A DNA stretch of 64,000 bases. Origin: Tubulanus polymorphus (taxonomy: Eukaryota > Nemertea > Palaeonemertea > Tubulaniformes > Tubulanidae). Positions 4,301-53,800 of the stretch are shown here, in pieces. Numbering within the stretch: the stretch's first letter is position 1; every line of letters starts with the position of its first letter. A program made the translations under genes and the position numbers. The notes under the pieces are model-generated. The model ran no database searches. It was not told the origin of the DNA and worked only from the letters and a program-made list of their open reading frames with translations. Location of the stretch: the NCBI RefSeq assembly GCF_964204645.1, contig NC_134031.1:15001307-15065306 (forward strand), read 5' to 3'.

Positions 4301-5440
4301 AACAGTGGAACTGAGTCCAGAACTGGGGAACTAAGCGCAGAACTATGGAATTGGATCCTGAACTGTGAAACTGAGTACAGAACTGTGGAACTGAGTATCG
4401 AACTGTGGAACTGAGTATCGAACTGTGGAACTGAGTATCGAACTGTGGAACTGAGTATCGAACTGTGGAACTGAGTACAGAACTATGGAACTGTGTTGTG
4501 TATCTGTGATATCTAGAGACTTACTTGAGAATGTTATGACTCCATCTTTCTGCGGAACCGAACGAAGGTAAGCGTTACAAAAATCAGGAGATTCCAAAGC
4601 AAGAAATACAATATTTCCCAAACTATAACCAACTGTTTGTCCTATAGTGTTACACGTAGAAGCCCATCCTACATTCTTCCTGAAATACAATAGAAACTCT
4701 GAACACAGTAAATACATCCCCTCAACTCCCAAATCCATAATAATACCACATTTCAAACTTAACTGGGTGTGAATGGCTGCATTTTAGACTGCTGCCCAGT
4801 GAGGGGTAACATACCTGGATAACATAGTCAGCGCCCAACCATCGACAGCAATATCCTGAGTCGCAGCCAGAAAATACAGCGAAAAAAACACTATAGTCAA
4901 CAATAAAACGTTCACCTCTCCGCCATCTTTATCATCGCCTAGCAACTCGGTAATATGACCGGACATTACGAGCATGAATATACCCATCAGATACTGGACC
5001 GGAATCAACCATGTTTTACGCTTACCGAACCGCGGTAAAAAAACAGCGTCAACAATCGGCGCCCATAGCAACTTTAAACTGAAAGGCCAGAATATAAAAC
5101 TGAACATCGCTTGCTGTTTATAACTGACTTTGCGACTCTGTAAGATGAGCGGGATGCTCCCGGAGAGACCGAGGGGAATCCCCTGTAACACGTAGAGGAA
5201 CAATAAAACGGCTACGTTCGTGTAGTCACCCTTTAAACCCATCCAGCCGTCCTTATTCCTGTCCTCCTCGGCGTCATCGTTCTCGTCCTGCGAGTCGTCA
5301 CGGCGACTGGACCCCGTGTACGATATGTGTAACGGTACATGTGGAAAATTCAACTCCGAATCCATCTCAATATTTTCGTCGGGGAAATTGCTGAATTGCG
5401 GAGACTTTCTCGATTTTGACCGGCGCGCTTGAACTGGCAT
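1359..5440 (-). CDS. SLC33A1: Acetyl-coenzyme A transporter 1, 3'-partial
   Basis: Multi-pass transporter of the ER membrane; the family imports acetyl-CoA for acetylation of lumenal proteins and glycans. Coding exons (minus strand): 4815-5440, 4525-4679, 3554-3744, 2793-2977, 1774-1894, 1541-1649, 1359-1465, giving 498 codons in frame. The start is the ATG at 5440; an acidic, Ser-rich cytosolic head of about 70 residues is followed by the first membrane span. Family landmarks include QDIAVDGWALTMLS at the end of exon 1, NVGWASTCN opening exon 2, TGLKLIEAGVPKE in exon 4, and DPAIGGTYMTMLNTVSNLG across the last introns. The human protein is about 549 residues, so roughly 50 C-terminal residues are missing beyond the window's left edge. 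Intron 2 holds a large minisatellite. The gene is head to head with CYB5D1, 1.4 kb apart. Identification is by recognised family sequence, with high confidence. Confidence 0.93.
2029..2316 (+). mobile_element. TTAACCCTTTCAGTGC MITE, copy 1
   Basis: Non-autonomous DNA-transposon-like element in SLC33A1 intron 4-5. It begins TTAACCCTTTCAGTGC and ends with the near-inverse GCACTGAAAGTGTTAA, so it has about 16-bp terminal inverted repeats. Inside are short palindromes around ACACCGCAGTGCGGTGTA and a conserved block with GATGGCAGCACCTGTCAAAC. Five more copies occur in the window. Confidence 0.8.
2417..2520. repeat. Palindromic element with GTTCCACAGTT ends
   Basis: About 100 bp. It starts GGATCCAGTTCCACAG and ends with the inverse CTGTGGAACTGG; the interior pairs GAGTTAA with TTAACTC around TTCATTTTCAATG. 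It is one of at least eight dispersed copies (also at 3789, 4028, 10362, 34659, 36660, 49312 and 55656). The ends match the unit of the minisatellites in three introns. Confidence 0.7.
2579..2732. repeat. Palindromic element with CCTCGTTACA ends
   Basis: Foldback element of about 155 bp starting GTGGAACCTCGTTACAGCGA and ending AACGAGGTTCAACTGT. A second copy lies at 44967-45128 in NOC2L. The interior (GTTATAACCGATAGTTCATT) matches the second copy in reverse complement. Confidence 0.65.
3880..4495. repeat. Minisatellite of GGAACTG units in SLC33A1 intron 2
   Basis: Tandem array of about 20-bp units, each like GAACTGTGGAACTGAGTACA, with variants (GTATC, GATCC, GTCCA) in the second half. It contains a palindromic element copy (4028-4137), and its unit equals that element's terminal sequence. 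No gene product is implied by the open frames across it. Confidence 0.85.
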
Positions 5441-28600: not shown

Positions 28601-31600
28601 CTGTACTCAGTTGTTTAAAACATTTTTTTTTTTTTGAAAGGATAATTGATGATTATGTATGATTTTAGGGATCATCCGGAATGCCTGGACCTCGAGGCCC
28701 AATAGGGGGCGATGGAGATCTAGTACGTGTCGTAATCATTCATGTTTAAATCTGATTTTTGTTCGTTTGATTGATATATTTGTATGTGATATGTTTTGAT
28801 GGCTATTTCCAGGGAGAGCCCGGTCCGCCCGGACACATTGGTGTACCCGGAGACCAAGGCCCTAGAGGTTTCATCGGGCCCCGTGGTAACTCCGGCCCAT
28901 CAGGCCCACCAGTAAGTTTTACTAAACTATACATTTCACTTGATATAGAAATGAAACTGCTTATATATAATAGAATATGAATTATTTTTAGGGTTTACCA
29001 GGCAAAGAAGGTCCAGCAGGGCAGAAAGGTGAAATAGGCGGAGTAGGACGCGCTGGCTCAGTAGGTTCAGCAGGTGCCCCAGGACCTCGTGGCCCACCCG
29101 GACCGCAAGGACCCCTCGGACCATCAGGGGTTGCTGGACCGATTGGAAAGCCTGGATTACCCGGAGTCCCTGGTGCTGATGGTTCTCCTGTAAGTTATTC
29201 TTATCATTGCACAAATCGGATTAAGATATTTTTCTGCTTATAAATTGATTGGTTAATCATAAACGATGCGTTGTGTATTTCAGGGTCTACCCGGACCTCC
29301 CGGCACTGTCGGTGAGAAAGGAGACTTGGTAAGTAGTGTATTTGACGCTTGGACTCAGTTCTGAATCCAGCCCAAAACTGTTAAACTGCGTTTATTATTT
29401 TATCATCACACCATTATTTTATCATCACACCTGGTAATTAAAGTGAGTTTGTTGTATTTCATAGGGAGTTCATGGCCCGGTTGGAATCACTGGGTATCCC
29501 GGACCAAGAGGATCCAAGGTAAAAACTCAATTCTTCACCGGTATCTATTGGATTTAGAATTTTGTGGAATTAATGATGTTCTATTGTTTCTGTAGGGAGA
29601 TCAAGGAGGTCGTGGTACAGTTGGACTGAAAGGCGAACCTGGACAGCGTGGGCCTCACGGGCGACGTGGTTCCATCGGTTACAAAGGAGATAAAGGTTTA
29701 GCGGGCCCGTCTGGCATCCGCGGAGAGGAAGGACAAGTCGGTCCAAAAGTAAGTTCATCCGTTAAAAATCTGAAAAACAATTCCGTTGAATTTTTGATGA
29801 ATGTTCAAAACATGTGATTTGTTGAATTTAAGGGATCCGTTGGACCTCGCGGGGAGTACGGACCTCAAGGACTCCGTGGACCTAAAGGTGCCCTCGGTAT
29901 TCCTGGTTACCCTGGTTATCCCGGCCCACCAGGAGCTAAAGTAAGTTGTAACACGACTAACGATAAATAACGGAAGTTCTGTGTTTCGCGTGCGTGTTTA
30001 TATTTAGTTGGTTTATATTTTAGGGTAATCGAGGCCACGTTGGTACATTAGGTAGAGATGGAGTAAAGGGAGATGAAGGTCCTCCAGGTCCTGCTGGAGA
30101 CAGAGGTGAACCGGGCCCCAGGGTAAGTCATCCGGAGTCGACGGGATAGTGTTAGCTTCTGTAATTTAACACGGACAAAAATAGTGTTTCGATAACACTG
30201 AAGAAAAGAAATCTTAAGGAACTTAAGATCCGTTAATCCCTGCAAATGTTTTGAACTTTGCACAGTTTCTATGTAGAGAAATATTTGAATGTTAATGATT
30301 TTATTTCAGGGTCTCCGCGGAGAACGTGGCCCTGATGGTCGAGGTGGAAACGTAGGAAAGAAAGGTGATCGCGGCGATCCTGGCCCGCCCGGACCACCCG
30401 GCCCTTCTGGAGTTGCTGGCATACCAGGTCCTGTTGGATTCCAAGGGTCCCCGGGCCCGGCTGTAAGTAGTTCGGCGATGCTAGAAAATATCTCGCTACT
30501 TCTGCTACTATTGATGGTTTGTTTCTTGCGATAATTTCTAGGGTCCTCAAGGTAAAGTTGGCAACCCCGGTTTACCCGGAGAGCGTGGTATGCAGGGTGA
30601 GAGAGGTCTACCCGGTAATGTCGGTCATCCCGGTACTATCGGAGCTGCGGGTCTAAGAGGTGACCCTGGCCCGGCTGGTGAACGAGGCGTACAAGGTGCC
30701 CGAGTAAGTATGCCAATATCGCATCATTATTCTATTTCTTCTTCACTGTGAAAACTTATTTGAATTTGTTAATGTTTTCAAGGGTCCACCAGGTGAGCCT
30801 GGTAGTTCTGGTGATACTGGTCCTGAAGGAAAACAAGGAGAAAAGGGTCCCCCTGGACCACTCGGTCCGCCCGGACCACCTGGACTTATCGGCTACCGAG
30901 GAACCAGAGGCTTACCTGGTCCTGAAGGTATGCCCGGATTTAAGGGTGATGCTGGACCACCGGGACCACCTGGTGCCCGTGGTGAGAAGGGACAGAATGG
31001 TGAACTTGGACCACCTGGACCACGGGGCATGCAAGGACAGCCCGGACCTGTTGGTTACCCTGGAGATGTCGGAGAGAAAGGAGATGCTGTGAGTAAAATT
31101 CTTGGAGAAAAAACATTCAATAAAATATTTCTAATCATTTAAGTGATTTGCTTAATACTATATCATATCATTTTAGGGACCATTTGGGCTGCCCGGACCA
31201 CAAGGACCCAACGGACCGGTTGGCCTCAGAGTAAGTACTATCTGTACAGTCAAAAAGCATATTTTTTGCTTCAAGGTAACAACTACAATAATGCTCTGAA
31301 TATTTCAGGGTCTACCAGGTCCACCAGGCCCAGAAGGACCCACCGGAGATCAAGGCCAAACCGGAAATCCTGGACCAGCTGGAGAACGTGGCCCGAAGGG
31401 AGATACAGGTAACCCTGGTCCAGCAGGTCCGCCCGGACCATCTGGCATTATCGGAGCTCCTGGAACAACTGTAAGTATCAAAAGAAGTATCACCATTATT
31501 GAATACATAAAGCTAGAAATAGTTTTGATTTGTAATTTCTGTATTTGATGATTTTCCAGGGACCTGTAGGTGAACCAGGACCCCCCGGTGAGGCTGGTGT

Positions 31601-34600
31601 CCCAGGACACAAGGGAGATGAAGGACCTCGTGGACTCAACGGTCTGACCGGTGCCCCAGGCCCTCAAGGCTTACCCGGTTCAATCGGAACTCCTGGACCT
31701 AAAGGAGATGTTGGTAAAGTGGTAAGTTGTTGATATCCTTTTAAAATTTTAGTGAAAAGTTTTAAAAGAATTCAAATGTAAATTTAGATTTTTTTTTCAA
31801 ATTCATTTTTAGGGTCTACCAGGAGCACCTGGAAATATTGGTGACCCTGGCCCGGCAGGTATCGTTGGTGATGTAGGTCCTCCAGGAGCCCTTGGGCCTC
31901 CTGGTCGCAACGGTCTGAAAGGAGACGTCGGTGTTCAAGGTCCACCTGGACCACCTGGAAAAGACGGTGAACAGGTAAGATTCACTTCGATCATCGCTCC
32001 TGTCTACCTCAAAATTTACTTATCCTCACTGTCCTCTGTGAGATCTGAAGCAAACATACTGTTTAACTGAGTTGTATTAATTGCATTGATTGTTTTATTT
32101 AGGGCCCAACCGGTCGCCCGGGTGCTAAAGGTGACGAAGGCAAAGCCGGCCCACAGGGAGTATTTGGCCCACGTGGACCACCAGGTATCCGCGGACCGAA
32201 AGGCGAGAATGGTGCCCCAGGTGTGCCCGGACCACAAGGTGCAATCGGTAAAACTGGTCCTAAAGGAGATGTGGGTGTCGCTGGGCGTGATGGAAAGAAA
32301 GGAGATGAAGGCCCGCCCGGACCTCCTGGTGAGGTCGGTATGCCTGGCATTCCTGGACCGCGGGGTAAGAGAGGACCAACCGGACCCACGGGACATCCTG
32401 GAGTAGTTGGAGATATCGGAGAGAAGGGAGAACCCGGTTCTCCGGGTCCAGGGGGACCAGGTGGCCCTGTAGGACAGGTGGGACCGGCCGGTGCCCCTGG
32501 CTCAGTGGGAGCTCCTGGACAGCCTGGACCTGCCGGGCAGGTTGGAGCCCCCGGACCTCCTGGTAAAGCCGGTGAAACTGGTCCAACTGGACACCCCGGA
32601 CCTAAAGGTACCAAAGGACCAGAAGGTCCTAAGGGAGACAAGGTATTTATCATTAACAGACAGATGAACATTTTCTTCTTTCATTTCTGCAGTGGTTCAA
32701 ATATTTGAATCTGATTAATTTCAGGGTCATCGAGGTGATATTGGTGTTATGGGAGTACGTGGCGCCATGGGAACGCGTGGAGACCGAGGACCTCCGGGTC
32801 CTGAAGGTCCACCAGGAACCAAAGGTGAACAAGTAAGTATCTACCATAATCCATTGAAGCATTGGGTGTACATTTTCCCCTCATAACTTCAATACATGTA
32901 TATCTGAAATAATCATTATCTTTGGATTTTAGTAAGATCTATGTTTTTTTGCAAATTTCAGGGTCAAATTGGAGAACCAGGACCTTCTGGAGAACCAGGA
33001 ATGCAAGGTTTACCCGTAAGTTTAGACGGTTATTGAAATATTCTAAGGTAAAATCATGCAGTTTTGAAGTGTAATACGATGTTGATGGTGTATTTTTAGG
33101 GACCTGATGGACCAGTTGGACCTAAGGGTAATGCTGTAAGTATCTAGCTAATTGTGGTTTATATCAATTTTCCTGAAATTTTTGTACTGTATTATAATCA
33201 AAAGTTGCATTTGTTTATCTCAGGGTCAAGATGGACCTCCTGGGCCAATTGGAGCATTAGTAAGTTATTAGTTCATCCCTTCACATCCGAACTGACTTGA
33301 TTCTTCAATTCATTCTTGCAAGTTTGTAAAACTCTTTGATTATATAATTCCAGGGACCCCCAGGACCACCCGGTGACCCACGTGATTTCAAGATATCCGA
33401 TTCGTACCTGGGAGGAGTGAGGAACCGTCGCGCTACCGTTTACCAAGCCGATGAAGCCAGCAGCGGAGACGAGGAGAAGGGAGATACTAGCGAACGAAAA
33501 GTCACAAACAAAGGAAAACTTGTTCCTCTGAGCCAGGTTAGAATTATTCAGCAATGGATAACAAGCTTAACTTAGACTTAATGAAATGAAATGATCTTGT
33601 GTAGCTTTTAGATCTACATATACCTGGGTACTACGCTTAGGCCCACTAAATTCAACAGACTTAATTTGATCTGTGACTGGAAAAGAAATAATCCTACATG
33701 GCTTAGATGGCTTTACTTGATTCTACATGGTTTAAACAGGCTTAACTTGATCTTACATTTAGACAGGCTGAACTTAATCTTCGTTGATTTTAGACTGGAT
33801 ATTTTCTGCACTTAAGAGAGGGAACACTCAGAGTTTGAATTTGAAGTCTCTGATCTACCCACAATATCTATTCCTGAACTTAGATCTATTCATTACTCTG
33901 TAGGTCGTTGATAGTATTTTCACTGATATCGATGAACTCCGAGCTGAAATCGAGAAACTCCAAACTCCAGACGGAACTCGTGAGAATCCGGCTCGCTCGT
34001 GTAAAGATCTATGGCTTTCATTCCCTGATATGCCTGACGGTAAGACTCTACCCTCCACCCAGCTCCACAGTTCTAGGTTTAGAGTCCAATCTATCCAGCA
34101 ACTGTACAACCGAGTCCTGGAGCCCAGCTGTACAGTGTACAAGTCAAAAAGCGGTTTTAAATCAAATCGTTGAAGCAAGTTTTATTGACTGGTATAACAT
34201 TTAACTCGAGGTCTAACTCAGTTCATTTTCAATTGAATTAACCCCTGGATTAAAGGTAATGCTAGATTATAAAACACTACCCCTGGTGTTTAAGTTGTTG
34301 TTATATTCAGCTATAAAACTAAGTTTGTGTTAGACTTATGTAACTGTCCTGTGTCCCGTCAATTTATCAGATAATGGATGTTAAACTGACTGGTATTTGT
34401 AGGTCTTTACTGGATTGATCCCAATCTTGGTTCGATCAAGGATGCAATTCAAGCCTGGTGCAACATGACGGCTAAAGGACAATCGTGTATCCATCCTGAC
34501 AGAAATACTCAAGTCGTAATACCGCGACATTGGCCGAAAGAAACTGCCGCAAAGGGAGATGCTTGGTTCAGTGGGTTCTACGGAGGATTCAAGGTGAGTT

Positions 34601-44800: not shown

Positions 44801-47800
44801 CAGTAGCGAAGATGAAAGTGAAGAGGAAGGATACAGACCTCCCGATAAACTTGAAGTAAGTTTGATAGAGAGAATCCCGCATTAATACGAGAAAGTTGAC
44901 ATACAAAAGTTTCCTTTTAGCTGATAATTTATTTATTAATTCGAAATTTCGATCAAAACCTAATTTAGTGGAGCCTCGTTACAACGAACTCAAAATGGAT
45001 ATTACAAATATAGAATTTTGTCCCAAGTAAGATAATTTGATTAATTTCATACTGGATATAACAAACTATCGGTCATAACGAACATATTTCCTGGTCCCGT
45101 GAATTTCGCTGTAACAAGGTTCCGCTGTCAATTTCAGGAATACTAATTTTAACAAAATTATGAATTAATTGTTATGACACGCACATAGTGTTTCATCAAT
45201 GGTTATTCAAGTATGTAATTTTTAAAAGTTTGGCCCAGTTCAGTTACGCAGTTCAACACTGATCATAAATTTTGATTCTGATTTCTGAAGCTGCGAATGG
45301 TATTAGACTGAGAGTTCTTCATTAAAAACTCTCTGAAAGAGTAAATTGAAAATTAGAATTATCTTCAATCTAAAAATTTGGTTTTCCCTTTTCAATGACT
45401 CGAATTCTTAATACTTCTATGTTTAACTGTTGCACAGGTTGCTAGCGACAGCGAGGGTAGCACTACAGATGAGGACGAAGGAGCGGACTCGGAACAAAAA
45501 CGCAAGAAAAAGAAATCCGGCGGTAAAACGTTGATCACGCTGAAAATGTTGAAAGAATGGACAAAAAATCTGCGGGTAAGAAAAAAAAGATATCCTTGTA
45601 TATATATCTACATCATTGATTTTTTTACTGAGTTGCTCGCGTGTAGTGCTGAAAAACGGCTTTTGCGGCCCGTAACGGGGCGCCGCCTACATTGTTTTTC
45701 TTATGCAAATGAATAGATGATGAGCATCTTGACTCGTCTTGGAACTAGCGGTGTGTTAACTGTAAATCATCGGATGAGGTTGTTTAATTCTCCGAGTGAA
45801 ATTTCAATGTTAAAACTGCTGAAAAACGATCTGAAAAATCAGAATTTTCTGGGGGAGGACCCCCAGACCCCCTTTTATTCTGGCAGCTGACGCTGCCAGT
45901 AACTTCACGCCTACGGCATTCGTTATTTCTAAGTTAATATGAGATTTAAAATTTTCCGCCTTTTTAATGATGCCCTGTTATCATCCCTGTAAATTTTAGA
46001 TGAAAAATTGTTGCAATTTTTTTTTGTAGGAGCAAAAAACGATTGCTTCGATTCATAATTTAGTTCAAGCGTTAAAAGCAGCCGTTCAGAGTATCGCGGC
46101 TAAAAGTGAGGAGGACGTAGAGGAGGCGCCTATTAACTTTAAAGTAGAGGGCAGCACAGGTAAGGAATTTTGAATTTAGTATCTCGGGTGTCTTGATGAG
46201 TCTGATACATCAGAAACTGCCGTTTAGATATTCAAATGGCTGTTGAATTGATGGATCACTCGGAAGTAAAGATATTGTAACCTTTAACTTGGAAAAGTCA
46301 AAGAATTAGAAAAATCTAGAAAAATTTCAGGAAAAACGCTTTCAACAACAATTCTTACCAAAAAACCTGGAAAATACTATGCTATCGGGCGCTTGTTTCC
46401 TTATCAGCAAGTGATTCACTGAAAAATGAATAGATTGTAACATTTTAAACCTAGAAATTGTGATTCATTCACTCAGGGAATTTGTGTAAACATGGAAAAA
46501 ATTAGGGAAAACTCTTGAGCCAATTCCGTAGTCAAGACTTACTCCAAAAGTGGTCTTATTGACTATATAAAGATGGTCTTAAACCGGTCTTTTCTGTTAA
46601 CCATGACTATGGAACTGGCCCCAGGGGATTTGTAGATGGGCTGAAAGTGGCTACCCTGAAGAAGTAAGCATAATCCAGAACTAATTGAGGGAGACTAATT
46701 AAGAATGTGATACAAACTAGGTGTAATATACAATATTAAACTAGGGGTAATTAGATGATACAATAATGCGACTGACTTGTATTTATATTTACAGTATTCA
46801 ACGCTATTGTAAGGTTGTGTATGACCGATATGATTCCGACGTTGAACGCCGCGTTGAACGTAAAACAACCGACCGTCCAGAATCGAAACTTCGTTCCGTC
46901 GAATTCATCGCGCTGGAAGAAACTCCGGATCGACGTCCGAGGGTATATTACGGCTATCATCAAGGTATTAACCCCTTCAGTGCTGACTAATCAATACCCA
47001 ATAGTGCTGGAGATGATTTGAACATTTTGAAAAATTCCACCCTAGTGTGTTGAATAACAGGAATACCACAATATTGCGTCTACACCGTGGTGCGGTGTAT
47101 GGTTAGTTACTAATATTTCACTATGTTTGACAGGTGCTGCCATCTTTAATAGAGATAAAGACTAATTACATCAATACAATGCATTGCGGTGTACAAGCAA
47201 AATTCATCACTGATTTATACACTGCACTGCGGTGTAGATGCATTGAAAGGGATAAATCTCGTTACAGAAAACATTTGCTGCTACTGTTTGTGATTCTGCA
47301 GTTCATTGATTAGTTTTACTGTGTTGGAGTGACGACAATGTCAAATACCAAATACTAGAATTTATACATGCCTGATTCTGCTGTCAAATTATACTTGATA
47401 ACTGAAATATGAAAATTAGTTCACTTTCAAATGTCAAAACGGAGAACGGCAGGACCGGATCGTGAACTGTTAATAATGAGGATTGTGAGATATTATTATT
47501 ATGATCATTATATAAAACTTATACAGCGCCTTATTCCAATGATCATGCTCTACGGTGTTTTACAGAAAGTAAAAGCAGTACAATTGAGATACAATATATA
47601 GCACATGATATAGTGCAGTGCAGCATCAGTAAAAGACTACAGCAATTAGGTTGTTTGTCTAAAAAGGTGATGATCAGTCGACTGTAAGATTGTATTGTAT
47701 TTCCAGTTATTATCCGATGTCGCCGAGGTGTCGATCGTTAATGTCGTATTACGACATGTTTATCAGTTGATTCCGTACGTTGCTTGTTTTCCGAAAAGTT

Positions 47801-50800
47801 CCAAATCCATGTTAAAGGTGAGCGAATGACGAAACTCGAGAAGTAAATTACGATTTAATTTCGACGTTGATTTGAAATTGTTATATTTCTATATTTTCTC
47901 ACAGCATTTGATTACGACGTGGAGTACCGCTGATGAGACCAGCCGTGTTTTAGCTTTTCTCTGTTTAATGCGATTAGCTCGGACACAGGCAGCCGATAAT
48001 CTGACGAATTTCATGAAAGTAAGTTCACTATAGCAAGTTTTAAGTTAATCTTCTAGATTAGATGGGAAAGAACAGGGCCTGTTCCGTGCTAATAATTATT
48101 GGTATGAAAATCAGGGGCTGGTTGCTGGAGTTAACCAGTCGTGGATAATGACAGTTAAAAGTTCATCGTTACTTTGGTACCAGGCTATTTATCTGTAACC
48201 CTGTTATCTGTAAAATAAATAATGTGAAAATCGGGCCCCATTTCAAAGTTGTGGGTTAAATTTGACTATTCCGCTATTCGAAAATTCAAGATATTGAAAA
48301 ATAGGACTGATTTAACTGAGGTACTGTGATTGAAACTGGGTGCCGAATTTAGAATTATCCAGAGTTGCTGTTAAAAGCAGGCTGAATTTTGATCGTAATT
48401 AAGGGGGAACTGTTGTCAAAAAATTATAATTGGCCATTCATTCTATTCTTGTTGTTGTTTAGCATAACACTAGTTGAAATTTCCAATTCTCCCTGATTAA
48501 CTTGTATACAACGATTTTGATACTGTTATCAGCAGAATTTACGGCAGATGAGAGCCGCCATATTTAATTGAATTCCAAAGTGAGGCATGTAAACATTGAT
48601 GACGTATCCTGGCCCATCACACACAAATAGATACACTCATTGAAGATCTCAGTTGAAAAATTGCGATTAAAATACTCCTGCTGAGCTGCCAGCGGGGTCT
48701 TTACTTTTATTTATCCACTTACTGTGTGAAACATATCCAAATAATTGCATAATAATTGCAAATAATTGTGTGGCATATTGCTGCAGTTTAGAACTGTTAT
48801 TGGACTGTGATGAAAACACAATGAATAGCAGCAGTAACATGTATCGAAGTGGGCCGAACTACGTCACAGCTGAGAGAAAAGGTGTCTGCTACGTGGAGAA
48901 AATGGCGACGGCCAGGCACTCTCTACGAAACCCACTTTTTTGGATAAAGTATTAGATGAAATGTTTTCTGCTGTTTTGAAAATGTATTTATAAAGGTTTC
49001 TAACACATAGATACAAACAATTTTTCACTGCAGTTCCCCTTTAACATGTGAATATCTTCTCGTTTCAGCAAATGTATATGTCATTCGTAAAGAATTGTAA
49101 ATTCACTTCACCTACGTCACTACCGCAGATCAACTTCATGCAACGATCTCTCGTTGAAGTATTTTCATTGGATATCGATTCGGCCTATCAACTGGCGTTC
49201 GTGTATATCAGGCAATTAGCTATACACCTACGTAACGCTATCAACACTAAGAAAAAGGTCAGTGTGAACAATAGTCGAGTTTTTTAAGAGTTTAAAAAAA
49301 TTTTTGACCCCGGCCCTGTTCCACAGTCATGAGTTAACTAATGTACAACTGTGGAACTGGATACCTGAGTCCAATGTTTAAATCTAGAGTGAGTCAAATA
49401 TGAACGGAGAATGATTGTGAAAATTTTTCATTGAGCTAGCGATAGCTGTTATTTCAATGAATTAGTCATCCTCTCTGATTGAACCTATTTTCGTGCTGGA
49501 TGCTTGAGTGACTCAGTTTGCTAAGAATCCTTGTCATTTTTCCATCGAGCCGTTTGTCTATATAATGAAGCTGGACGGAAGATTGATAAGGGCTTTTGGT
49601 CGGCAACTACTTCACCTCTCCGCGCGGTGACCTTGTAAAAACGATGTCGGTTGTGTTTTGTATCCTTGTCACTTTTTCGTCGTGTTCTAAATTCATGAAA
49701 CGACAGGACGGAAGACTGATAAGGGTTCAATCTCAATACTATTCACCGATTGGTTGATATTGATTTGAAATGTTCAACGTTTTTACCCTTATGACTTTTT
49801 CATCCCGCGTGTTGAATTCAAAAGCTGGACGGAAAACTGATAAGGGCAGAAAATGAACTAACTTCTACCACCCTTCCTGGCTTTTGCCGAGTTTAACAGA
49901 AATCTGAAATCTGACATCCGTTCTAGTCCTTAAATACTCTAATAAACACTCTAAGATTGGTGCAACTGATTCCTTTGTCATAGAACAAAGTTAGGCTGGT
50001 GTTGTCTTGATTGAAATGTGAAGCTCAGCTCTAGGTACTGGGGTTAAGAGAGCTGTCTATGATCAATCCTTATCAACTTCTCGTCGAGTTTGAAATCGTT
50101 ACTGGACGGAAGTCTGATAAGGTCTGATTGTATCGACTCGACCAGCAGACGGACGTGGCTGCAGTGGCTCCCTCTTTACCGACAGATGGACATGGCTGCA
50201 GTGGCTCCCTCTATACCGACAGATGGACATGGCTGCAGTGGCTCCATCTATACCAACAGACAGACTGCAGTGACTGTATCCATAAGAAGATGGACATGGC
50301 TCCCTCTATACTGACAAACAGACATGGCTGTAGTGGATCCATCTTCACTGACGACACAGAATTGGCACAATCTACCGCTGTAAACGGATACTAAATGCTA
50401 TGAACCCTTGTCAACTTCACGTCGAGTTTGAAATCAATACTGGACGGAAGTTTGATAAGGGCTTGTGGTTGTAACTGGCAACAGGAACTGTAAACATTGT
50501 TGAATGTGATGGATTTCTGGTCCTTGTCACTTTTTCGTCGAGTTTAAGAAAAGAAAAAACGACTGGACGGAAAACTGATAAGGGCTGGAGTTCATTTACC
50601 CGACAGAGATGAGAGAGGCCCCCCATTTCGTTCAATCTAGAGATCTTTCTTCTGACAAGTTTCTTCTATATGAACCCAAAGCTTGCCAAGTTTTGACTGT
50701 TTGAGGCTGTAGATTGATAATGAAATCTGTGATGTTTTAATGTTGTGTTTTGTTGTTGTAGGAATCGATTCAAGCTGTTTATAACTGGCAGTTTATTCAT

Positions 50801-53800
50801 TGTATAAATTTCTGGACGAGATTCCTGACGACGTTACACCCGAACGACACGTTAGATCCACTCATCTATCCACTTACACAGACGATCATTGGAACGATCA
50901 AGTAAGTGTCCTACACCCTGTGCTACTTGTGGCATTCGAGGATTCCACATGTTGCAGGCGAGGGTCCACCTAGTGTCGCCAGTCGATTGTCAGTCGTCCG
51001 TGTTCGATTTCTTCTACTATTCAATTAAATCCTGATGGACTTTTCTGCATGAATCGATCATTTATGAAAACTATACTGATATCTTAGTTAGAAAAAGGAA
51101 AGCGTCGTATATTTGTTGGGTACTGTGATTATATATGGATTCGGGAGTCAAAAAATTCAGTTCATTGAAATTTGATAACGTAAGACTTATTGCTTGTCAC
51201 ACCATCTACTGGTTTTGCGGGTACCCCACTTATTATACCGATATCTGAGTGAAAAAAAATTTGTTTTTTTCTGTGGTTGCTGTGATAATATATGGATATG
51301 ATTTATGGACCTATTGTTATCATCTGGTGGGAGAGACCCCGGAGTTGCGAGTTCCCCATCGGTTTTGATTGAGCTTTAATTGCTTGTAATGGCAGCGAAT
51401 ATTACAAGAACTAAAAACTGTCATCTGAAGTCGGAGATCTGACGGTGGTTATTATGGTCCCTTATCAACTTCTCGTCGAGTGTGATTGATTGAAGTAACT
51501 GGACGGAAGTTTGATAAGGGCTCACAATAATCCTAAACACAACTTGCCTGCATAAACCTCTCGTCTGCTAATAACGCCAGAATCTCGATGTATTAACTTC
51601 GGCAGCCAATGAAGTTACCCCCAATCAGTCACCAGCTGTTTCAGAGTGGTTGAGAAATTGTTTGAATGAACCGGAACAAAATTTCCCAATTATGTACTTT
51701 GATTTAAACAAAAAATGCTGTAATTTCGACTGCCGATCACAAAGCTATATCTGTACTTCAATTTCCAATTTCAAAATCAAACTCCTTGTTTTGCTCCCGG
51801 CAGGTGTGGTGGGTTTGTGAGGGACACCGAATCAAAAATCAAGCGAAGTCTACCAATTGAATAGATAACAGGGTCAATCCCTATTTCAAGATCCAAATAA
51901 AAAATGAAAAAATAAGAACATTGTGTTTTATAGGTTGGTGCCCGCTGCTAAATACTACCCGCTGAGATTTCATTGCATCCGAACTTTAAACACAATATCG
52001 GATAAGACGAGATTCTACATCCCGGTCCTGCCGCATATACTAGAGGTACGTACTACTCCTGAGTCGACCTCCACCAGGTGGTGCCAGTAGGACTCGTTAA
52101 TTAAATTTGATGATTATTTTACAGGTTTTTGAATTGAGCGATTTCAACAAGAAGCACACTAAAGCCAGTTTGAAAACGTTTAACTTCGACTGCGTGCTGA
52201 AACTGTCCAAAACTCAACTACAAGAAAAAAAATTCAAAGTAAGTTGAAAAAAAAATCAGGGGCTGCAGTTGCTCGAAAGTTGGTTAGAGTAAACCAGTGG
52301 ATAGTTTATTCGCATTTATCCGCCGGTTATCTTAAACCAACTTTTCAGCAACTGAACCCGGCTATTTCTGTTTGTTATTCTATAAGCTGAAATCAACCGG
52401 TAGAAGTTGTGGGGAAGATCTGTAATTGTGTAATCTGTATTTGTAGGATTGTGTGATCGAACAAGTTTACGATTTATTGATGGAGCATTTTAACCTACAT
52501 TCACACAGTATCGGTTTCCCTGAATTAGTGTTTCCCGCAGTCTTGCAGGTAAGCCATTAAATAGTGAAATCCAGTCTCCGCTGATTGCTGATTGAAGATT
52601 TTTATGGACTCTCTCGACTTTCACTTGACAATTTTCGTAATGTGGTAATGATGGTAATGATTGAAATTTATATAGCGCAGGTATCCTGACCTTAGTGAGT
52701 TCAGATGCGCTCCAAATTTGGTGTTATCACCCCCAGCCTCATCATACATTTCATGTATCAATCATGGAGAGAGGCAATGAGGATACATATCTTACCCGGG
52801 ATTCGAACCCATGACCTGGCTTCTCACAGTCGAACATTCTAAAACATGTCAATGTCATTGTTACAAAAACCAATACAACTCCACATAGTTGTTCATTATT
52901 ATCTCCTTGCTTAACCCTTTCAGTGCGTCTACACCGCATCACCGCAGTGCGGTGTATGAATCGATGATGGATTTTGCTAGTACACCGCATTGCAGTGTAT
53001 TGATGTAATTAGTTTTTATCTCTATTGAAAGATGGCAGCACCTGTCAAACATAGTGAAATATGAGTAACTAACGATACACTGCGTCGCGGTGTAGACGCA
53101 ATATAGCGGTATTCCCATTATTCAACACACTAGGGTGGAATTTTTCAAATTATCTCCAGCGCTATAGGGTAGTCAGCACTGAAAGGGTTTAGTACCTTTG
53201 TGTAAATTTAAGAGAATACGTCTTAAGAATTTGGTTTGTCGAAATTGTTTTTCAGTTGAAGACGTTCATCAAACAATGCAAAGTCGCTAGTTTTACGAAG
53301 CAGATCAAACAGATCGTCGACAAGGTGCAAGAATCGAGCAAAACGATTCAGCAACGCCGAAAATCCAGTTCGATCGACATCACCGACTCGTCTGCGGTCG
53401 ACAATTGGGAAATCGCGATGAAACAGGAGGGAACGCCGCTCGGTAAATTCTATTCCAGTTGGCGTAAATTGAGAGATCGAGAAAAACAGATGGAAGCAGC
53501 CGGAAAAGACCAGGTAAAACTCGTAATTTACTCGAGCTGGGGATTGATGAGAGGTTTAAAACCAGACTTCTATCATACAGTAGACTGTGTTTACCCCCCT
53601 GAGTCGATTGCCCATCGACAATAAGTTATAAATTTTCCAACTCCTCCAAGATGGCGCAACAAAACGCTGGGTTATATGTTGTGAGCATCAGTTAATTTTC
53701 AATTAAATTTGAACTTGACTTTTAGGCCGCCAAATCTGAAAATTATCTGTACTGTAGATCTGAGGCAACCTCCACAGTCTATTGTAGATCAGAGGCCACA

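Follow-up and report, generated by a model that had tools for sequence, protein, structure and literature searches.

Seven mir-184 hairpins lie on the sense strand in two introns of NOC2L in the nemertean Tubulanus polymorphus

The window, a 64-kb stretch of contig NC_134031.1 of T. polymorphus, contains a gene encoding NOC2L. Five adjacent exons, among them the three around the hairpins, give a 219-aa translation that aligned over its whole length with human NOC2L (Nucleolar complex protein 2 homolog, 8fkv; E = 2.7e-82), and the Noc2 domain (Pfam accession number, PF03715) was matched within the assembly only at this locus. The exons at 49069–49257, 50762–50901 and 51934–52045 have GT-AG ends and splice in frame. 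Seven hairpins, spanning 49529–51521 on the plus strand, lie in the two introns between these exons (Table 1), and all of them are sense to NOC2L, as the first-pass annotation of this DNA had proposed. Because no hairpin comes closer than about 170 nt to a splice site, their identification as mirtrons was rejected. The plus strand of the window carries no TCCGTCC (7mer-m8 or 8mer site), and direct feedback of miR-184 on the NOC2L mRNA is therefore not indicated; a weaker CCGTCCA at 46873 was the sole seed-type match inside the gene. A 37-bp minisatellite (3.1 copies, 50146–50260, plus strand; TRF) occupies the NOC2L intron between hairpins 4 and 5, outside the hairpins themselves, and reading frames with collagen-like Gly-X-Y repeats occur elsewhere in the window, at 30708–32708 on the plus strand.

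Table 1. Positions in the window of the mir-184 hairpins and of the NOC2L introns and exon around them (3p, the 3' arm; CNNC, distance in nt past the 3p end).
Feature	Position	Strand	3p arm	3p sequence	RF00657 (bits)	Folding z	CNNC	Remarks
NOC2L intron, 1504 bp	49258..50761	+						Hairpins 1-6; GT-AG boundaries, neighbours splice in frame
mir-184 hairpin 1	49529..49593	+	49572-49593	TGGACGGAAGATTGATAAGGGC	46.5	-3.4	+17	
mir-184 hairpin 2	49664..49726	+	49705-49726	AGGACGGAAGACTGATAAGGGT	39.2	-5.4	+18	
mir-184 hairpin 3	49787..49847	+	49826-49847	TGGACGGAAAACTGATAAGGGC	53.5	-3.8	+18	
mir-184 hairpin 4	50068..50124	+	50103-50124	TGGACGGAAGTCTGATAAGGTC	40.6	-5.9	+19	
mir-184 hairpin 5	50406..50462	+	50441-50462	TGGACGGAAGTTTGATAAGGGC	43.2	-7.1	+17	
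mir-184 hairpin 6	50522..50585	+	50564-50585	TGGACGGAAAACTGATAAGGGC	53.6	-6.2	+16	
NOC2L exon between hairpin-bearing introns	50762..50901	+						Noc2 Pfam PF03715; human NOC2L match E 2.7e-82
NOC2L intron, 1032 bp	50902..51933	+						Hairpin 7; splice check of flanking exons
mir-184 hairpin 7	51460..51521	+	51500-51521	TGGACGGAAGTTTGATAAGGGC	46.4	-5.1	+19	

miR-184 is an ancient and abundant microRNA of bilaterians. All seven 3' arms begin at the positions given in Table 1 and contain the seed GGACGGA followed by TGATAAGG, and each is matched by a complementary 5' arm of the CCTT(A/G)TCA type (CCTTATGA in copy 3); no further GGACGGA was present on either strand of the window. The folding proposed in the first-pass annotation was carried out, and each of the seven folded better than all 200 of its dinucleotide shuffles (z from -3.4 to -7.1), hairpins 1 and 3 being the poorest. 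The precursors measure 57–65 nt with paired arms, in line with the stable hairpin of about 60 nt expected of MIR-184. The Rfam covariance model for mir-184 (RF00657) matched all seven with 39.2–53.6 bits (E from 3e-6 to 4e-10); these scores fall below the curated cut-off of 54.1 bits, and a default Rfam scan therefore lists none of them. Antisense matches to the model were discarded as mirror scores of palindromic stems. The miR-184 identity that the first-pass annotation had read from the letters alone is supported.

Across the 268-Mb assembly, the pattern of seed plus core gave ten matches. Nine were strong mir-184 copies, namely the seven in NOC2L and two on contig C12 (near 1.911 Mb); the tenth (C7:3772997) was rejected as a chance pattern match without a mir-184 hairpin fold. 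The C12 copies, about 930 bp apart, carry the canonical arm TGGACGGAGAACTGATAAGGGC, and one of them exceeds the Rfam cut-off (67.2 bits against RF00657). Their mature arms are identical and their star arms have diverged (L014:3548-3629 and 4478-4559, minus strand). No obvious exon was found around the pair, which is apparently intergenic. Canonical mir-184, as represented by RF00657 and the C12 pair, agrees with the cluster in the seed, the core at positions 13–20, the hairpin shape and the 3p end, whereas the cluster copies differ from it in having A9 in place of G9, varied positions 10–12 and an intronic location in NOC2L. For let-7, mir-124 and mir-7, one match each was found in the genome among the best candidates scored, which indicates, but does not prove, that these families are single-copy.

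The pattern of substitution among the copies points to long-standing selection. Positions 2–8 of the 3p arm, which hold the seed GGACGGA, and positions 13–20 were invariant in all nine copies in the genome, and variation within the cluster was confined to positions 1, 10–12 and 21–23. If sites are taken as independent, the chance that seven variable sites out of 23 would miss both invariant blocks is 3e-5. The first-pass annotation had placed the variation mainly at positions 9–12, 1 and 21–22; this was correct for 1, 10–12 and 21–22, but position 9 is A in all seven cluster copies, a fixed change from the G of the canonical copies, and position 23 varies as well. Mean pairwise identity of the seven was 0.89 for the 3p arm, 0.77 for the 5p arm and 0.54 for the loop (0.44 for shuffled loops), and the 50-nt flanks starting 10 nt outside the stem were at chance level (0.48–0.49 versus 0.46–0.48 when shuffled). 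The arms are thus more conserved than the loop and the flanks, which is the pattern sought by MirGeneDB-type criteria. Since the loop sits inside the copied unit, its divergence indicates age even if the flanks were never copied. Among the nine copies, pairing was retained in 93.4% of pair cells and six pairs showed changes on both sides; this level of covariation was reached by none of 500 shuffles and lay above all slid controls, with part of it held by the three outer stem pairs.

A CNNC motif downstream of the hairpin, about 16–18 nt beyond the 3p end, is a known element of Drosha substrates, and its position here agrees. CNNC started 16–19 nt past the 3p end in every cluster copy, and in nine of nine copies when the C12 pair was included (background, 0.163 per site; P = 3e-6); the strict 16–18-nt window held it in five of the seven. 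When every two-letter motif of the form XN(0-4)Y was tried at offsets 8–49, only CNNC was present in all seven. The basal UG motif was inconsistent across the hairpins checked. The case for selection on the seed, which the first-pass annotation had considered likely, is thus strengthened by the divergent loops and flanks, the covariation and the CNNC motif. The conservation favours the 3p arm as the guide, and the best reading of these sequence patterns is that the cluster copies are old, selectively maintained paralogues of miR-184.

The history of duplication was examined with a maximum-likelihood tree and with identities over whole hairpins. The mature arms of copies 3 and 6, and those of copies 5 and 7, are identical over 22 nt, as had been noticed earlier; the pairwise duplications read from these identities fared differently. 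Over the whole hairpin, copy 6 was nearest to copy 2 (0.82, versus 0.76 for copy 3), so that copies 3 and 6 do not appear as a duplicate pair, and their identical arms more likely reflect constraint on a short sequence than recent duplication. The tree itself gave no support for pairing copies 2 and 6 (support, 24). Copies 5 and 7 do fall in a common clade with copy 4 (support, 82), but the nearest relative of copy 5 is copy 4 (0.89, versus 0.84 for copy 7; support for copies 4 and 5, 88). That hairpin 7 belongs to this group supports the suggested jump of a duplicate across the exon that separates the introns.

Taken as a whole, these data make it very probable that the cluster consists of seven genuine mir-184 paralogues, which would have arisen by repeated old duplications, been retained by purifying selection and be expressed from the host transcript. 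The NOC2L pre-mRNA would carry the hairpins, Drosha/DGCR8 would crop each of them out of its intron, dicing would follow, and the 3p arm would be loaded into Argonaute with the miR-184 seed unchanged, which would direct all cluster copies to the same set of targets as the C12 pair. Coupling of cluster expression to NOC2L is plausible, and the number of copies may raise the dose of miR-184, or the cluster may place miR-184 under the timing of NOC2L.

Two other accounts of the cluster are unlikely. Most of the copies could be relics, with one or two of them, or only the C12 pair, making miR-184 and the others being decaying duplicates of low output. There is a precedent in the oyster, where Cgi-mir-184-P7 is the dominant isoform; most of the others belong to a set of miRNAs jointly accounting for less than 0.1% of expression, and for several of them star reads are missing (PMC7488030). 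In the nemertean cluster, however, none of the seven seeds has changed despite strong divergence of the loops, CNNC is retained in all seven copies, and compensatory changes preserve pairing. Because most oyster isoforms are barely expressed and one is dominant, some copies of the cluster may nonetheless be nearly silent. Intronic microRNAs may possess promoters of their own, and the cluster could accordingly be driven by an intronic or upstream promoter, with NOC2L an incidental host to whose transcription it is not tied; this too we consider improbable, since all seven copies are sense and are distributed over two introns spanning an exon, as fits a host transcript. The hairpins could also merely resemble mir-184 and belong to an inverted-repeat mobile element or a satellite. 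This reading would fit several copies within a small region, but has next to no likelihood, being refuted by the genome-wide copy number (ten pattern matches in 268 Mb, nine of them the cluster and the C12 pair and the tenth without a mir-184 fold) and opposed by the Rfam match and the CNNC motif.

In addition to the mir-184 paralogues, two other microRNA families are present in multiple copies in this genome. mir-1992 (Rfam RF04081, with scores below its cut-off) has six copies, comprising a canonical-type pair on C1 (C1:25379119-25379418, plus strand; L025) and a cluster of four on C7 (C7:4272949-4273862, minus strand; L024), and CNNC lies at 16–18 nt in all six. The mature arms of the C7 copies have a G-to-A change in common, and the layout is as for mir-184. 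Contig C11 carries a tandem array of twelve hairpins (C11:11981722-11983458, minus strand; L020) in which the TCAGCTGTGACGATGCCTTC arm hardly varies; the array lies inside a MAM-domain gene and is sense to it. We take this array to be mir-1989-like on the basis of the mature mir-1989 sequence, from which it differs by two mismatches, rather than of an Rfam match. A further candidate of this type, C5:3071872, had no microRNA hairpin fold and was rejected. Both MIR-1989 and MIR-1992 are families specific to spiralians (PMC6468455), and their presence places the animal in Spiralia. The assembly gave no COX1 hit, no haemocyanin domain of the mollusc type and no clear mir-1984, negatives that carry little weight as to phylum. 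Since the mir-1992 and mir-1989-like expansions share the genome with the mir-184 cluster, microRNA amplification is suggested to be common in the lineage, as reported for mir-184 in the oyster. More tentatively, and with considerable doubt, all three families may have expanded into clusters, of which two lie sense within a host gene, and mir-184 and mir-1992 may have kept canonical-type copies elsewhere, such that transcription of the host (NOC2L for mir-184) would supply the same seed from a further source with its own timing. With frozen seeds and diverged loops and flanks in the introns of a ribosome-biogenesis gene, the NOC2L cluster offers a natural test of dose tuning by copy number and by host linkage.

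The closest known system is the MIR-184 expansion of Crassostrea gigas. An early study reported 67 mir-184 BLAST hits at two loci of about 4.5 kb (PMC4138081), and later reports give 43–44 MIR-184 genes (PMC9820140; PMC9679248, citing Rosani et al. 2021). The view in the first-pass annotation that miR-184 is mainly one locus per genome thus fails for spiralians, given these oyster counts and, in the present genome, the C12 pair as well. As far as these sources describe it, the oyster expansion resembles the NOC2L cluster in being a tandem, high-copy array of mir-184 in a spiralian, and it differs in having far more copies; these sources name no host gene for the oyster arrays. In the literature searched, whose scope did not include key bivalve papers, NOC2L was not found as a host of mir-184, and the one joint match was an unrelated review. 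The oyster also carries mir-2 as a six-copy tandem family in an intron of PPP4R1, where expression of the mir-2 copies correlates with that of the host (PMC4138081); this array too is tandem and sits in an intron of a host gene, but both the microRNA family and the host are different. Multi-copy mir-184 and intronic tandem microRNA families are therefore already known, and the NOC2L cluster adds a well-supported case to these instead of opening a new category.
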